Shown here piece after piece: positions 35,982 to 42,680 of a DNA stretch of 64,000 nt (within the stretch, counting starts at the first letter, position 1; every line of letters starts with the position of its first letter). The DNA is from Muribaculaceae bacterium (lineage in GTDB: Bacteria; Bacteroidota; Bacteroidia; Bacteroidales; Muribaculaceae). The translations under genes and the position numbers were made by a program. Under the pieces are notes generated by a model. It saw only the letters and a list, made by a program, of their open reading frames with translations, was not told the DNA's origin and made no database searches. The stretch spans positions 47,471 to 111,470 of the forward strand of contig JAFUKL010000002.1 of the NCBI GenBank assembly GCA_017473615.1. The letters run 5' to 3'.

Positions 35982-37205
35982 TCAAGCTATTACGCTTAGC
36001 AGATAATCGCACTTCTGTTTATTGCCGAGAGTCTTCCCCTTGTCACAAGATAACTTTACGCAGTCGTGCCACTCACGTGATTCTGTTATACGGCATTTGG
36101 TGAGTTTTACAACAATATTCATAGGGCTGCAATTGTGTATGTCGCATGTGATGTTGGTTCCTACACCGTAACTGTCCAACAGCCGCCCGTCGACGTATTT
36201 GTGTATATCTATGGCTCTGTCTATGTCTAAGCCGTTACTGAAAATCACCTGTTTGCCGGCAGGGTCGATGCCTAATGAATGGTATTTTCTGATTATTTTC
36301 TCGATTTGTTCTTCCTCCAAGCCGCTGTCTACACGCAATCCCTTATACATCATGGCCATGCGTTTGGAAAGGTTATTGAAGAAAACTTTATCCCCGAAAG
36401 CGTCATATAGATAGACTCCGTTGTCTCCGTCATAAACATCACTGAACTTTTTCATTACGTTGTAATTGCATTCAAAAACTCCGCTTACGGTTTCTTCAAA
36501 CATTACAAGTTGGTGGCTCATGGTTCCTATTGGAGTCAAATTGTGTTTCATGGCAAGGTATACGTTACTTGTGCCTATGAATTTGCCGTTCCATGAAATG
36601 TATTGGTTATTTCCGTTGCATGTGCCGCCCTCTTTATATAGTTTGGCGAGTTCGGCTACAGCCATGTCCTGATGTGAGTAAGTGAAACGCCTGCGAGTTC
36701 CCATATCTCCAAGAATAAGTCCGTTGCTGAGTATTTTGACACCTTTTTCACGTATGCGCTTTCGCTCTAATTCCTCGTTGTATTTTTCAGTATCGCCATT
36801 TATACGGTGAGCCAGTTCCGATACAGTAGATAATATAGGCATTTCCCACATTATCGCAGAATGCCATTTCCCACATACCGTAACGTTAAGGTGTCCTTCG
36901 ATGTCTTGGCTGATGGATAGTTCTTCGGGATTGAAACGGTATCCGCGCAAGAATGTGAAGTACCATTCAGGAAGATAGTAGCACTTCCGGCGCATGAAAT
37001 TGATTTCTTCATCGGTGATTTTCACATCTGCCATGTGGTTCATCTGTTCCCTAAGCAGTTCGGCGAAGCCTTGAGGATAGCAAGTCCCGTTTCGGTCGAA
37101 GAAACTGTATTCCACCTCAGCTCTGGGGTAGGTCTGCAGCACATAGTATTGGCATGTGAAAGTGTATAGGTCGTTATCGGTGAAATGTGTTATGATGGGT
37201 TCCAT
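35982..37205 (-). CDS. pncB: Nicotinate phosphoribosyltransferase
   Basis: NAD-salvage enzyme converting nicotinate and PRPP (with ATP) to nicotinate mononucleotide. The 407-aa protein has ITHFTDNDLYTFTCQYYVL at the N terminus, the conserved GTRRRFTYSHQD, SWNGKFIGTSNVYLAMKH and PIGTMSHQL (active-site His region), and FSNGLDIDRAIDI plus VGTNITCD for the phosphate site. The length fits the bacterial PncB type I. It is monocistronic. It starts 74 bp from a large hairpin that closes the his operon. Confidence 0.95.
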   Translation of the reverse strand: MEPIITHFTDNDLYTFTCQYYVLQTYPRAEVEYSFFDRNGTCYPQGFAELLREQMNHMADVKITDEEINFMRRKCYYLPEWYFTFLRGYRFNPEELSISQDIEGHLNVTVCGKWHSAIMWEMPILSTVSELAHRINGDTEKYNEELERKRIREKGVKILSNGLILGDMGTRRRFTYSHQDMAVAELAKLYKEGGTCNGNNQYISWNGKFIGTSNVYLAMKHNLTPIGTMSHQLVMFEETVSGVFECNYNVMKKFSDVYDGDNGVYLYDAFGDKVFFNNLSKRMAMMYKGLRVDSGLEEEQIEKIIRKYHSLGIDPAGKQVIFSNGLDIDRAIDIHKYVDGRLLDSYGVGTNITCDIHNCSPMNIVVKLTKCRITESREWHDCVKLSCDKGKTLGNKQKCDYLLSVIA

Positions 37206-37357: not shown

Positions 37358-38500
37358 TTAGAGTGTCCCCTTGGTGGTTGGGAGTTGGTAGGTGAAGATG
37401 TCACGCCTTATCGCCATTTTAATGGCGCGTGCCAGAGCTTTGAATATGCCTTCTATCTTGTGATGTTCATTTTCTCCGCATGCAGAAATATATAGATTCA
37501 TGCGTGCGCTGTCGCTCAGGCTCTTGAAGAAGTGCATGAACATTTCGGTGGGCATCTCTCCGATTTTCTCGCGGTGGAACACCGTGTCCCATACAAGCCA
37601 ACTCCGTCCCCCGAAGTCGAGTGCAACAGTGCATAGGCAATCGTCCATAGGGAGAACAAAACCGTAACGCTCTATACCGCGTTTGTCGCCTAATGCGATG
37701 CGTATGGCATCACCCAAGGCTATGGCTGTATCTTCTATGGTGTGATGCTCGTCAACCCAAGTGTCTCCTTTCACTTTCACGAAAAGGTTAATGCCTGAAT
37801 GTTTGCCTATCTGGCAAAGCATGTGATCGAAGAACCCCAGTCCGGTGTCGATGTCGCATGAACCGGTTCCATCAAGGTCTATGGCTATGTCGATGTCGGT
37901 TTCGGCTGTGGTGCGTTTAACTGTAGCTGTGCGAGAACCTCCGCGCAGGAAATCGCATATTCTGTCCCATGATGGTGTGATAAGTGCGCACACGTTTTCC
38001 AGACCTGTTTCAGATATTTTGGTTTTGCCGGTTTCTTCATCGCATAGGAAAATGGCTTTTGCTCCGAGGTTTTGAGCCAAGAGTACATCGGTGATACGGT
38101 CGCCTATGACAAAAGAATCGGCAAGGTTATAATCTCCGGAGGTGTATTTACCCAATAAGGCTATACCGGGTTTGCGCGTAGGAGCATTTTCATGCTCAAA
38201 AGTCTTGTCGATGACAATATCATCGAAAGTAACCCCTTCGCCTTCAAGTGTCTTCAACATCTTATTATGTGGAATCTCAAAAGTGACGGTAGGGAAAGCT
38301 TCACTGCCTAATCCGTCTTGATTAGTCACCATTACCATCTCATAGTCGAGATGTGACTTGATAAAGCTAAGGCTGCTTATGACTTTAGGAATAAATTCCA
38401 ATTTTTCAAGCGTGTCTACTTGGAAATCGATGGGCGGTTCTGTGATTATAGTTCCGTCTCGGTCGATAAACAATGCTTTTTTCAATTTATTTCCGTTCAT
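37358..38500 (-). CDS. hisB: Bifunctional histidinol-phosphatase/imidazoleglycerol-phosphate dehydratase
   Basis: A 380-aa fusion covering the histidinol-phosphatase and IGP-dehydratase steps. Residues 1-170 are an HAD phosphatase: FIDRDGTI (nucleophile Asp), MVTNQDG, and [13 protein letters not shown]. Residues ~185-380 are IGP dehydratase, with [27 protein letters not shown] and [17 protein letters not shown], the metal-binding His/Glu pairs. The fusion is also found in enterobacteria. It overlaps hisC by 14 bp and is the last gene of hisGDCB. Confidence 0.96.
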
Positions 38501-39524
38501 ATTCCTTAATTGCGTTTAGCAGTTGGGTGTTTTCTTCTATTGTGCCTATGGTGATGCGCAGGCATCCTGCACATTTTTCCACTCGGTTGCGGTTTCTCAC
38601 GATAATACCGTTTTGGCACAGATAGGAGTATAAATTATCGGGGTTGTCCACTTTTACCAATATAAAATTAGCATCACTTGGGTAGATTCGCTTTACACAG
38701 GAGATGTCTTTTAGTTCGTCGGCGAGGTGAGTACGGCTTTCAATTAATTCTTCCACCCAAACTTTTACCATGTGGCGGTCTTCGAGAGCCTGTAGCGCCA
38801 ATTCCTGAGTAACGGTGTTTAAGTTATAGGGATATTTAACTTTATTGTAGTAATCTATGATTTCGGGACTTGCAAAAGCTGCTCCGAGTCGCAGTCCTGC
38901 ACATCCCCAAGCTTTCGAGAACGTTTGCAGTACTATCACATTGGGATAATCTGCCAAGTACTCCAGCATACTGCCTTTGTTTGAAAAATCGATATACGCT
39001 TCATCTACCATCACTATGCCGTTGAATCCTTTTGCCACGGTTTTTATAATATCGGTGGATGCAGCGTTTCCTGTGGGATTGTTGGGTGAACAAATCCATA
39101 TAAGTTTGGTGTTCTCATCGGTAGCAGCCAGTAAGTCGGCAGGGGTGAAACAGAAGTTATCGTCGAGTTGTACCTTACGGTATTCGATGTCGTTAATATC
39201 GGCACACACTTCATACATGCCGTAACTTGGAGCAATAGCTACCGCATTGTCAATGTTCGGTCGGCAGAATATACGGTATGCCAAGTCTATGCCTTCGTCA
39301 CTACCTGCACCGAGGAAAATATTTTCAGGCTTTACGCCTTTTACTGCCGCTAATTTTTCTTTTACGTTCTTTTGTAACGGGTCGGGATAGCGGTTGTAAG
39401 GGGCATTGAACGGATTCTCGTTTGCATCGAGGAAGACCGCCGCTGTTCCGGTAAACTCATTTCTGGCGGAACTGTAAGGAGAAAGCCTGTTGATATTGGG
39501 TCTTACTAATTTATCAATGTTCAT
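38487..39524 (-). CDS. hisC: Histidinol-phosphate aminotransferase
   Basis: PLP enzyme converting imidazole-acetol phosphate and glutamate to histidinol phosphate. The 345-aa protein has [53 protein letters not shown], and the PLP lysine in [16 protein letters not shown]. It ends with [20 protein letters not shown]. It starts 7 bp after hisD and overlaps hisB by 14 bp, so translation is probably coupled. Confidence 0.96.
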
Positions 39525-39531
39525 AACGGTA

Positions 39532-40812
39532 TCACTTTTGAAGTCTTATTGATACGGCGAGTTTGTGAGCCATCAGTTCCTCATTTTCAGCCATGATTTC
39601 TATGGCGTTGCCTATAGAACCTAATCCGGCTTGAGTAAGGCGTTGGAACGTGATTTTTTTGCAGAAACTGTCGAGGTTCACACCACTATATGCGTGAGCA
39701 TATCCGCTTGTGGGTAAGGTGTGGTTAGTTCCGGAAGCGTAGTCACCTGCACTTTCGGGAGAATAGGAACCAAGAAATACCGAACCTGCATTTTCCACTT
39801 GACGGGCAAGTCTGTCGGCATCGGTATGGTTGATGATGAGATGCTCGGGTGCATATTCATTGGCGAAGTTCATGATGTCATTCTCATTTTCAAACACGAT
39901 GATGCGACTGTGTGCGAGGGATTTAATCATCATATCCTTACGGGGTAAAGTGTCAAGCATCTCGGCAAGAACCGATGGTAATTTTTCTGCAAGTTCCTTA
40001 CTATCGGTGAGCAGAATAGATTGGCTGTCAGGGCCATGTTCGGCTTGTGAAAGAAAATCACCTGCTACAAATGCCGGATTTGCATTTTTGTCGGCTATAA
40101 TCATTACTTCCGAAGGACCGGCGGGCATGTCTATAGCAACAGTTTGCGCTCCTACTTGCAGCTTTGCCTCCATAACGAAACGGTTGCCGGGACCGAATAT
40201 CTTATGTACTTTGGGAATGGATTCAGTGCCGTATGCCATAGCTGCTATTGCTTGAGCACCTCCAACTTTGTATATTTCGGTTACGCCTGCAACTCTTGCT
40301 GCATATAGAATAGCGGGATGTACTTTACCTTCCTTGTTGGGAGGGGTACAAAGTATAATCTTCTTGCATCCTGCGATACGTGCCGGAATGGCTAACATAA
40401 GTACAGTGGAGAACAGTGGAGAGTTTCCTCCCGGGATGTACAGACCTACTTTGGAGATAGGCACGGCACGTTGACTACAAACAATTCCGGGCATTGTCTC
40501 CAATGAAATTTCGTTCATTCGCTGGGCTTTATGAAACTTTGAAATGTTTTTAGAGGCAATGGCAATAGCTTGTTTTAAAGAGTGTTCCACTATGTCGTCG
40601 GCATCATCGGATTCGGCTGAACTTACCCTTAAAGTGTCCAATTCCACGCCGTCAAATTGTCGACTGAATTTACGCAATGCTTCATCGCCATGATGACACA
40701 CTTCGGCGATGATACCGGCTACCGATTCTTTTAATTCGGCAGTGTCATTGACAGCGCGTTTCATAATGTCCTGCCATTTTGAGCGGTCGGGGTTGATGAA
40801 TATCTGTATCAT
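39532..40812 (-). CDS. hisD: Histidinol dehydrogenase
   Basis: Zinc- and NAD-dependent enzyme that performs the last two oxidations to histidine. The 426-aa protein includes VGLYIPGGNSPLFSTVLMLAIPA, VGGAQAIAAMAYGTESIPKV, FGPGNRFVMEAK, DMPAGPSEVMIIAD, SQAEHGPDSQS (zinc ligands Gln/His) and the C-terminal YASGTNHTLPTSGYAHAYSG. Its ATG overlaps the hisG stop as TAATG, indicating coupling. Confidence 0.96.
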   Translation of the reverse strand: MIQIFINPDRSKWQDIMKRAVNDTAELKESVAGIIAEVCHHGDEALRKFSRQFDGVELDTLRVSSAESDDADDIVEHSLKQAIAIASKNISKFHKAQRMNEISLETMPGIVCSQRAVPISKVGLYIPGGNSPLFSTVLMLAIPARIAGCKKIILCTPPNKEGKVHPAILYAARVAGVTEIYKVGGAQAIAAMAYGTESIPKVHKIFGPGNRFVMEAKLQVGAQTVAIDMPAGPSEVMIIADKNANPAFVAGDFLSQAEHGPDSQSILLTDSKELAEKLPSVLAEMLDTLPRKDMMIKSLAHSRIIVFENENDIMNFANEYAPEHLIINHTDADRLARQVENAGSVFLGSYSPESAGDYASGTNHTLPTSGYAHAYSGVNLDSFCKKITFQRLTQAGLGSIGNAIEIMAENEELMAHKLAVSIRLQK

Positions 40813-41666
40813 TATGGTATCATTTTTTCAATGTTCAGTACTAATAAACCTTCGGCACCGGCAGCTTTCAGTTTGCCGATGATTTCCCAAAAATGCTTTT
40901 CCTCTATAACGGTATGAACAGAACACCAATTTTCATCGGCAAGAGGAAGTATGGTTGGGCTTTTGATTCCCGGCAGGATGGTCACAACTTCGTTCAATTT
41001 GGCGCGAGGTACGTTCATCAGCACATATTTTTTGTTTTCAGCAGTCTTAACAGCTTCTATACGGAATAGTAATTCCTCTAATATTTGCTGTTTGGCATCA
41101 TCAAGTTTTCGCATATTTCCTATTAGTACTGCTTCGGAAGAAAGAATGGTTTCTACCTCGGTGAGGTTATTGCTTACCAATGTGCTTCCCGATGAGACTA
41201 TGTCGAAAATAGCATCGGCAAGCCCTATGCCCGGGGCTATTTCTACCGAACCGCTAATCACATGTATGTCGGCTTGTATATTGTTCTTTTTAAGAAAATC
41301 TTCCAAAATTCGGGGGTAGGAAGTTGCGATTTTCTTCCCATTGAACCATTCTACACCCTGATATTGGTGTTTTTGCGGAATTGCGAGTGACAGACGACAT
41401 TTACTGAATCCAAGTTCCTTGATGATTTCCACTTTTTGGCGTTTTTCCAAGACTTCATTCAGTCCTACAATCCCAATGTCGGCTGTACCTGTGGCAACAG
41501 AGTCGGGGATGTCGTCATCGCGGAGGAAGAGTAGTTCCACGGGGAAGTTGCGTGATGGAACCAGCAGGGTGCGTTTTACTGCCGTGAGTTTTATGCCTGC
41601 CTCACCAAGAAGTTCCATTGTTTCGTCGTAAAGACGTCCTTTTGATTGTACCGCTATGCGTAACAT
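40812..41666 (-). CDS. hisG: ATP phosphoribosyltransferase, long form
   Basis: First committed enzyme of histidine synthesis, joining ATP and PRPP. From the ATG at 41666 (MLRIAVQSKGRLYDE) it is 284 aa; a GTG three codons upstream is possible but less natural. The PRPP loop region EIAPGIGLADAIFDIVSSGSTL is present. The last ~75 residues (KLNEVVTILPGIKSPTILPLAD) are the HisG_C domain, which makes this the long, histidine-inhibited form that does not need HisZ. Expression is probably set by the attenuator just upstream. Confidence 0.95.
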   Translation of the reverse strand: MLRIAVQSKGRLYDETMELLGEAGIKLTAVKRTLLVPSRNFPVELLFLRDDDIPDSVATGTADIGIVGLNEVLEKRQKVEIIKELGFSKCRLSLAIPQKHQYQGVEWFNGKKIATSYPRILEDFLKKNNIQADIHVISGSVEIAPGIGLADAIFDIVSSGSTLVSNNLTEVETILSSEAVLIGNMRKLDDAKQQILEELLFRIEAVKTAENKKYVLMNVPRAKLNEVVTILPGIKSPTILPLADENWCSVHTVIEEKHFWEIIGKLKAAGAEGLLVLNIEKMIP

Positions 41667-41710
41667 GTTGTTCACTTGGAAATTATAAATTGATACATTA
41701 AATAAATAAG

Positions 41711-41738
41711 CCGATTGTCCGTATGGCGGAAATCGGCA
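41711..41738 (-). terminator. Attenuator terminator of the his operon
   Basis: On the minus strand GCCGATT (41738-41732) pairs with AATCGGC (41717-41711), extended by TCCG/CGGA with a bulged C. It is followed by TTATTTATTTA and lies 45 bp before hisG. Its loop-side bases 41730-41723 (CCGCCATA) are complementary to 41794-41787 in the leader peptide gene. Confidence 0.82.
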
Positions 41739-41783
41739 AGTTATCTTTAGTTCTCAACACCGTGCTACATAATCAACACCAGC

Positions 41784-41843
41784 CTACCGCCATAGCAGAA
41801 TGCCATAATGATGATGCATGTGATGTAGAAAAAGTATAGTCAT
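41784..41843 (-). CDS. hisL: his operon leader peptide (five His codons)
   Basis: The minus strand reads MTILFLHHMHHHYGILLWR then TAG, 19 codons with His at positions 7, 8, 10, 11 and 12. It starts about 19 nt after the predicted start site and ends 117 nt before hisG. The last codons (CTA TGG CGG) contain TATGGCGG, able to pair with the terminator. By the classic attenuation model, ribosomes stalled at His codons would leave this segment free to pair and break the terminator. Ribosomes reaching the TAG would cover it and allow termination. It is too short for ordinary gene calling. Confidence 0.85.
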   Translation of the reverse strand: MTILFLHHMHHHYGILLWR

Positions 41844-41868
41844 AACAAATTGTTGCTTTCTGTGTGTG

Positions 41869-41899
41869 CAAAGTTATATTTATTTCTTAATTCTGCAAA
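41869..41899 (-). promoter_or_regulatory. Promoter of the his operon
   Basis: On the minus strand, TTTG at 41899-41896, a 19-bp spacer and TAACTTTG at 41876-41869. Start predicted near 41862, with a short 5' UTR before the leader peptide ATG at 41843. Confidence 0.82.
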
Positions 41900-42242: not shown

Positions 42243-42680
42243 ATGGGAAATAAGACTATTGCGATAGATTCGCTTGACAAAATAAGAGAAGCAGCTCACG
42301 CATTTGTATCTGAAATGGGAGATTATACTGTTTTTGCCTTTAATGGCGAAATGGGTGCGGGAAAAACGACCTTTATTAAAGCTGTATGCGAAGAATTGGG
42401 CGTAGAGGATATCACTAATTCGCCTTCGTTTGCTATTATCAACGAATACCGCAGTGAGACTACCGCTGAGTTGATTTATCATTTCGATTGCTATCGTTTG
42501 GAAAATGAAACCGAGGCAGAAGAAATAGGTGTTGAAGATTATTTCTATAGCGGGGCATTGTGCTTTATTGAGTGGCCTGAACGAGTAGCTGATCTTCTTC
42601 CTGATGATACGGTTGATGTTGATGTGGAGGAACTTGAGGATGGAAGTCGTAAAGTAACTTTGAAATTTCCGGAGGAATAA
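42243..42680 (+). CDS. tsaE: tRNA threonylcarbamoyladenosine biosynthesis ATPase TsaE
   Basis: A 145-aa P-loop protein that energises the TsaBD complex forming t6A37 on ANN-decoding tRNAs. Features: Walker [30 protein letters not shown] and FIEWPERV, in the family order. The length is standard. It is followed 5 bp later by birA, so the two form an operon with a clear promoter upstream. Confidence 0.94.

Follow-up and report, generated by a model that had tools for sequence, protein, structure and literature searches.

How does a Bacteroidota genome decide when to transcribe its histidine biosynthesis genes? The question is raised by 64 kb of DNA from a Muribaculaceae bacterium (the whole analysed stretch, hereafter the window), in which hisG, hisD, hisC and hisB follow on the minus strand behind a short open reading frame (ORF) rich in His codons. 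An earlier note on this DNA had read the region ahead of hisG as a complete attenuator of the enterobacterial design. On the evidence of sequence comparisons and folding models, we put the probability that the element is a ribosome-mediated transcription attenuator of hisGDCB at about 0.9, and such an element would very probably let the bacterium make histidine only when histidine is short.

The promoter, the leader peptide with its five His codons, the terminator and the gene order hisGDCB, all of which the earlier note had reported, could be read directly on the minus strand (Table 1), and the identities of hisG, hisD, hisC and hisB were confirmed with NCBIfam models. As read from the letters, the locus comprises the leader, a predicted terminator, a complementarity between a strand A and a segment B of that terminator, and a defined spacing between the His codons and A. 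The leader peptide has 19 codons, with His as residues 7, 8, 10, 11 and 12. A hairpin with a T-rich tail does precede hisG, its stem lying at 41737-41710 rather than at 41738-41711 as first given, and the distance from the stem end to the hisG ATG (41666) is 43 nt instead of 45 bp. This terminator is absent from the list of a simple terminator scan, plausibly because of its bulge. The promoter is called Bacteroidota-type after what we take to be the consensus of the phylum; of 60 loci, 49 have a TTG-N18-22-TANNTTTG pattern no more than 110 nt ahead of the leader start, as against 1.4% of shuffles, one of the 61 loci introduced below having too little upstream sequence to be counted. The upstream region that contains the his promoter is shared with the divergent tsaE gene (42243-42680, plus strand). 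At the other end, a nicotinate phosphoribosyltransferase gene (35982-37205, minus strand) lies about 150 nt after hisB on the same strand.

Table 1. Features of the predicted his attenuator and of the operon behind it, in window positions
Feature	Position	Strand	Basis and remarks
Bacteroidota-type promoter: TTTG 41899-41896, 19-bp spacer, TAACTTTG 41876-41869	41869..41899	-	Sequence reading
Leader ORF MTILFLHHMHHHYGILLWR, ATG 41843-41841, stop TAG 41786-41784	41784..41843	-	Sequence reading; His-rich ORF in the same place in relatives
Putative regulatory His codons CAT CAC ATG CAT CAT CAT	41808..41825	-	Also in the 5' side of the outer hairpin
Antiterminator strand A, TATGGCGG	41787..41794	-	Duplex model adds GGC 41784-41782
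GGTGTTGA copy 1	41773..41780	-	Within the 3' side of the outer His-codon hairpin (MFE fold)
GGTGTTGA copy 2	41754..41761	-	Outer His-codon hairpin, lower part; partner ACATC at the first His codons
Segment B, CCGCCATA	41722..41729	-	Upper 5' arm and loop of the terminator, complementary to A
Intrinsic terminator hairpin, predicted	41710..41737	-	11 pairs, one bulged C, -14.1 kcal/mol
T-rich tail TTATTTATTT	41700..41709	-	A-interrupted
hisG, first controlled gene	40812..41666	-	TIGR00070 198.8 bits, TIGR03455 112.7 bits, above cut-offs
hisD	39532..40812	-	TIGR00069 530 bits
hisC	38487..39524	-	TIGR01141 364.8 bits
hisB, bifunctional	37358..38500	-	NF003937 503.7 bits

A frame so rich in His is rare in this DNA. 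ATG-initiated ORFs of 8-61 codons with at least five His in seven codons number two in the window, the his leader included; the other (10359-10225, minus strand) shares its strand with a 452-aa ORF that it overlaps. No ORF of this density appeared in twenty dinucleotide shuffles of the 64 kb, which averaged 0.9 at four His in seven. The pattern CAYCAY-N0-6-CAYCAYCAY occurs four times in the organism's own genome. Apart from the copy before hisG, one lies in the window, one inside a 154-aa open frame and one outside any frame with four His in seven, and in scans of these sites the copy before hisG alone was recognised as belonging to a short His-rich leader. Fold energy of the whole window leader was set aside as uninformative, the leader folding slightly better than its shuffles (z -1.46; 16 of 200 shuffles as good).

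Two samples bear on how widely this arrangement is kept. The first set, of 110 hisG loci, joined 30 loci, found by searching the window's genome and those of 60 relatives (36 of these 61 genomes had a hisG match), to 80 GTDB loci, the best among 561 confirmed ones, a choice that favours near relatives, and the two sources overlap. An ORF counted as a leader when it had three or more His in seven codons and its stop lay 60-260 nt ahead of hisG. Such leaders were found at 73 of the 110 loci, duplicates included, and 65 remained after removal of near-identical ones. A hairpin of -9 kcal/mol or stronger and a T-rich tail, both of which the search required, accompany 61 of these 65, the window's included; the leaders dropped had weaker hairpins (L056, L068 and L081) or none (L074). 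Beyond these relatives, a hisG search in 148 genomes of the phylum was positive in 128, from 68 genera, and 40 of the 128 were chosen by hand as a phylum sample, one per genus with close matches favoured; family f135, with many distant hisG matches (about 32% identity), has only two entries in it. A His-rich ORF within 450 nt before hisG is present in 32 of the 40 and is joined by a terminator in 24 of the 40, the remainder comprising eight loci without a His leader and eight with a leader and no hairpin at the cut; among the loci retained, L131 looks doubtful. As a yardstick, 21 window ATG ORFs pass three His in seven in 128 kb of strand, or about 0.07 per 450 nt, a count restricted to ATG unlike the phylum-sample scan, which also accepted GTG and TTG starts. 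Leaders of the same layout also occur in the sampled family f124.

Two hallmarks of the attenuator class are thus visible: a short ORF with several codons for the amino acid that the operon makes (five His codons before hisGDCB), which is conserved, and a predicted intrinsic terminator between the leader and the first structural gene, in 61 of 65 leaders of the first set and 24 of 32 in the phylum sample. The 61 loci with a His leader and a strong terminator include none of the 17 titled Prevotella or Xylanibacter (one of the 17, L094, has only 82 nt upstream), and control by the his leader seems, from these sequences, to have been lost or replaced there. The loci concerned include L056, L059, L069, L073, L078, L091 and L096, and further L099, L101, L102 and L108. 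Within the window's own family, L012, L013, L025 and L027-L029 are not among the 61 either. Four of them (L025, L027, L028 and L029) carry a more distant hisG, of 53-58% identity, without a leader, and their hisG could have been replaced along with its control. In the window's own genome, hisH (by family match) and hisA and hisF (by eye) lie together on another contig (L171, G000:C24:9505-10086, and its neighbours). No open frame with four His in seven was found in 3.6 kb there, so that attenuator control seems limited to hisGDCB.

Two other uses of such a leader have to be weighed at this point. Leader genes near structural genes are treated in PMC4833913, the available text of which proposes that short ones boost translation by reinitiation, and the leader might accordingly act on hisG translation, through reinitiation or by hiding the start, instead of on transcription termination. 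The leader stop here lies 117 nt from the hisG ATG, far from the Bacteroidetes peak of 11-14 bp given in the same text, and the hairpin with T-rich tail that accompanies 61 of 65 leaders (both required by the search) ends well before hisG in the window, at the 43 nt already mentioned; we regard translational control as very unlikely. The ORF might alternatively encode a functional His-rich micropeptide, ended by the terminator of its own transcript and close to hisG by accident. His-rich peptides can bind metals, and the ORF does have a promoter-like site of its own. Against this, His makes up 31% of the residues after the initiator and the next commonest residue 7%, the non-His residues follow no common pattern, and both lengths and C-termini vary among relatives. 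The end of the leader is moreover tied through A to the last His codon and to the terminator, as set out below, and among the four pattern copies of the genome it is only the one before hisG that belongs to a recognisable short leader. A free-standing peptide function is, on this evidence, very improbable.

An attenuator calls for more than a leader and a terminator, and the sequence also predicts an alternative antiterminator pairing that excludes the terminator. For each leader, A:B was taken to be the strongest duplex that the sequence following the last His codon can form with the 5' arm plus loop of the terminator. In the window this duplex reaches -18.0 kcal/mol (p=0.015, 200 shuffles of A) and consists of eight pairs and three more between GGC (41784-41782) and GCC (41737-41735). 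The 8-nt complementarity had been noticed before, with A correctly at 41794-41787 and its partner one position off, at 41730-41723 in place of 41729-41722. The eight pairs exclude the upper terminator stem only, so that a 7-bp lower stem remains available when they alone form; the three extra pairs would take the base of the stem as well.

The pairing is a property of the group and not of the window alone. In the first set (n=61), mean A:B energy is -15.1 kcal/mol, against -12.6 when B is taken from other leaders. Permutation of partners gave a real sum of -921 against a mean of -768 (sd 18) in the first set and of -374 against -243 (sd 15) in the second set (the 24 of the phylum sample), with none of 5000 permutations reaching the real value in either, and kinship among the loci inflates this contrast. 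Shuffles of A at each locus, which are independent of kinship, gave p<=0.05 in 38 of 61 leaders of the first set and 19 of 24 of the second, leaving 23 and 5 without individual significance, and A:B is stronger than A paired with reversed B in 53 of 61. The letters of A and B themselves vary: the window has TATGGCGG/CCGCCATA, several Bacteroides have CGGTGGGC/GGCTTACCG and family f124 has CTCAAGCG/CGTTTGAG. With paired letters that differ between groups while the complementarity stays, A and B have changed together. The earlier note had staked its reading in part on conserved His codons ahead of hisG and on kept complementarity between leader end and terminator; the former are conserved in relatives, and the latter is kept with changed sequence. 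A fixed motif, CGGTRGGC-N20-50-GGCTTRCCG, had 10 matches in 9 of 198 Bacteroidales genomes, which does not exceed the background given by the 11 of a backward control pattern; 4 of the 10 stand before hisG (L111, L112, L116, and L118 by position), and the window's own leader was missed. By these sequence statistics, the His leader together with its A:B complementarity is beyond chance.

A search over everything between the last His codon and the terminator in the 61 loci placed the start of A a median of 17 nt downstream of that codon's first base (IQR 16-19, sd 4.9; 16 nt in the window), as against a median of 22 nt in shuffles (IQR 11-34, sd 14.6). With the stop codon as reference point, the sd in real leaders is 10.5, and the smaller scatter from the last His codon indicates that A is tied to that codon and not to the stop. 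In the second set the same distance is 14-21 nt in 19 of 24 leaders, the others having 6, 6, 6, 10 and 44 nt. Given the dimensions of a ribosome, its front edge with the last His codon in the ribosomal A site ends near the start of strand A, and on this model A begins just outside a ribosome halted at the last His codon.

To follow the consequences, the transcript was folded as it stands when the terminator loop has been made and the 3' arm is still missing, with a ribosome masking -15 to +13 nt around the start of the A-site codon, and three model states can be told apart: naked RNA, stalled ribosome and ribosome at the stop codon. Mean P(A:B) is 0.24 in naked RNA (above 0.5 in 16 of 61). It is 0.82 when the first His codon occupies the ribosomal A site (54 of 61) and again 0.82 with the last (53 of 61), and 0.03 with the ribosome at the stop (2 of 61), this last result being largely built in because the mask then covers A. 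The corresponding values for the window are 0.08, 0.86, 0.96 and 0.00. The His and stop values are robust to front edges of 11, 13 and 15 nt. Codon by codon, the mean over the 61 leaders keeps within 0.79-0.84 while the ribosome moves from five codons upstream of the last His to one codon past it, where it is 0.79, and is 0.22 three codons and 0.04 four codons past that His. Three of the 61 (L007, L018 and L024) form A:B in no state. Shuffling the stretch from the His codons to the terminator lowers the share of leaders with stalled P(A:B) above 0.5 from 88.5% to 18.4%, and a full switch (stalled above 0.5, naked below 0.5) is seen in 62% of the 61 real leaders and 10.5% of 610 shuffled ones. 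In the second set, the stalled value exceeds 0.5 in 22 of 24 leaders and the stop value in none of 24. The naked mean there is 0.52 and the full switch is found in 37.5%, against 11.7% in shuffles, so that the default-off part is weaker in these leaders; together with the naked A:B of 16 of 61 leaders in the first set, this implies that default termination is not universal. In these models it is the position of the ribosome that decides between A:B and the terminator.

Full-length transcripts at equilibrium behave differently: all states favour the terminator (mean P 0.90-0.96), and the switch must depend on the order of synthesis, with A:B forming first. The same result, along with a perfect A:B run of only 8 bp in the window, would suit a constitutive terminator that merely lowers expression, behind His codons that are a relic. 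A relic would not show the complementarity of A and B and the His-to-A spacing that are kept across divergent leaders, and we accordingly hold this explanation to be highly improbable.

The folds also assign a part to the His codons themselves. In the naked window RNA, the His-codon stretch pairs with a region containing both copies of GGTGTTGA, copy 1 pairing in the MFE fold with the His-codon stretch and the next codon, and inside this outer stem a small leader-end hairpin takes up part of A (mean A:leader-end pairing 0.48). The direct repeat GGTGTTGA between peptide and terminator had been recorded in the earlier note; it is present, and its role would now be that of a partner of the His-codon stretch in the outer hairpin. 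An operator-like direct repeat, which we had considered, was dropped in favour of this hairpin. Across the 61 loci, the complementarity of the His codons to the downstream stretch exceeds that of shuffles at p<=0.05 in 17 and at p<=0.1 in 29 (median p 0.12), the window's own His-codon:repeat pairing being non-significant as a single locus (p=0.105). Support for the outer hairpin is present for the group and modest for any single locus. In naked RNA, the main partner of A is the leader end in 17 of 61 leaders, the His region or sequence further upstream in 8 and B in 16. Bacteroides-type leaders (L050, L058, L104) carry CCTAACGAATAA at the leader end shortly before CGGTGGGC, and this element makes a small hairpin with A when the RNA is naked; L087 and L107 are among those with CCTGACGAATAA in its place.

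Put together as an attenuator, these elements would operate as follows, the transcription start, the termination and the histidine response of the leader being what we infer from them. RNA polymerase would start at the promoter and a ribosome would begin the 19-codon leader. With ample charged His-tRNA, the ribosome would reach the stop codon and cover A, the terminator would form, and transcription would end before hisG. When charged His-tRNA is scarce, the ribosome would halt on the five His codons with its front edge just short of A, keeping open both the His-codon:GGTGTTGA hairpin and the small hairpin that hides part of A. The freed A would then be ready to pair with the terminator's 5' arm and loop the moment they are synthesised, which would block the terminator and let the operon be transcribed. 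In the absence of a ribosome, the outer hairpin would fold A away, with termination as the default.

On a wider scale, the data are compatible with an old, phylum-wide his attenuator of the Bacteroidota, in which the leader end doubles as the antiterminator at a ruler of 16-19 nt and the regulatory codons form a default-off hairpin; for this larger proposal we see the odds as even. Bacteroidota seldom use Shine-Dalgarno sites, and, if the proposal is true, RNA polymerase and ribosome would have to stay closely together at leaders in such a phylum. The attenuator itself would offer a concrete control mechanism, open to test, for the his operon in many members of the phylum, Bacteroides and other gut genera among them. 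Since the switch works only if transcription and translation remain coupled, his leaders could also serve as natural probes of that coupling outside the Proteobacteria.

Among the papers listed by our literature searches, none describes a his attenuator in Bacteroidales, and the attenuation survey of Lopatovskaya et al. 2010 may list such leaders. The available portions of two reviews of his genes (PMC8305728, PMC10138114) do not mention a leader for Bacteroidota, and those of a study of Bacteroides thetaiotaomicron mention short ORFs in long 5' UTRs and not hisG (PMC7366714). A possible precedent comes from Flavobacterium psychrophilum, for which the accessible text of PMC9723704 reports clues to leader-peptide attenuation of amino-acid operons; it also notes, ahead of hisG, a structured element that has no Rfam hits and is conserved in Flavobacteriaceae. 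Gene, phylum and lack of an Rfam hit agree with our locus; that text describes the element without a sequence, a peptide, an alternative pairing or a distribution beyond Flavobacteriaceae. The earlier note had thought a full attenuator in Bacteroidales notable. One is indeed predicted there, and it is less exceptional than that, since many relatives across the phylum share the design and the portion of PMC9723704 cited above already mentions a structured element ahead of hisG. Outside Proteobacteria, bacilli likewise have short His-codon ORFs in attenuated 5' UTRs, before hisZ and hisS* according to the text available of PMC2965389, and these differ from ours in gene and phylum.

Among catalogued RNA families, none in Rfam 15 reaches its gathering score in the window leader, matches at E<=10 lying far below those scores, and nothing was found at gathering scores in 16 relatives scanned. 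RF01692 (Bacteroid-trp), which we take to be a trp leader, has no match in the window or in 37 genomes of its family, and its matches in 5 of 61 relatives are all outside that family. Bacteroid-trp is listed as a candidate structured RNA of Bacteroidetes in the consulted part of Weinberg et al. 2010 (PMC2864571). RF00514 (His_leader), the enterobacterial his leader, has no match in the window either; with stricter filters and part of the candidates scored, it exceeds its cut-off in 0 of 99 phylum genomes, and none of 27 weaker matches in 22 genomes falls at a hisG position. The his leader described here is a member of neither family.

Models of the trp and his attenuators, such as those in the accessible text of PMC1183508, invite comparison with both. 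The enterobacterial his leader, like ours, places His codons before hisG, and ours has fewer alternative segments than hisL as generally described. The behaviour of stalled and finishing ribosomes that the earlier note expected from the enterobacterial model does hold in the folding models; the layout is nearer to that of the trp attenuator. In the trp attenuator the pairings 1:2, 2:3 and 3:4 are nested, a stalled ribosome covers the first strand, and a ribosome at the stop covers the antiterminator strand. The nested logic of protective hairpin, antiterminator and terminator is common to trpL of E. coli, as generally described, and the element modelled here, which differs in using His instead of Trp codons, in having A overlap the last codons of the leader, and in an extra outer stem built by the regulatory codons themselves. 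In the logic of its modelled states, the his leader is a trp-like attenuator with His codons.
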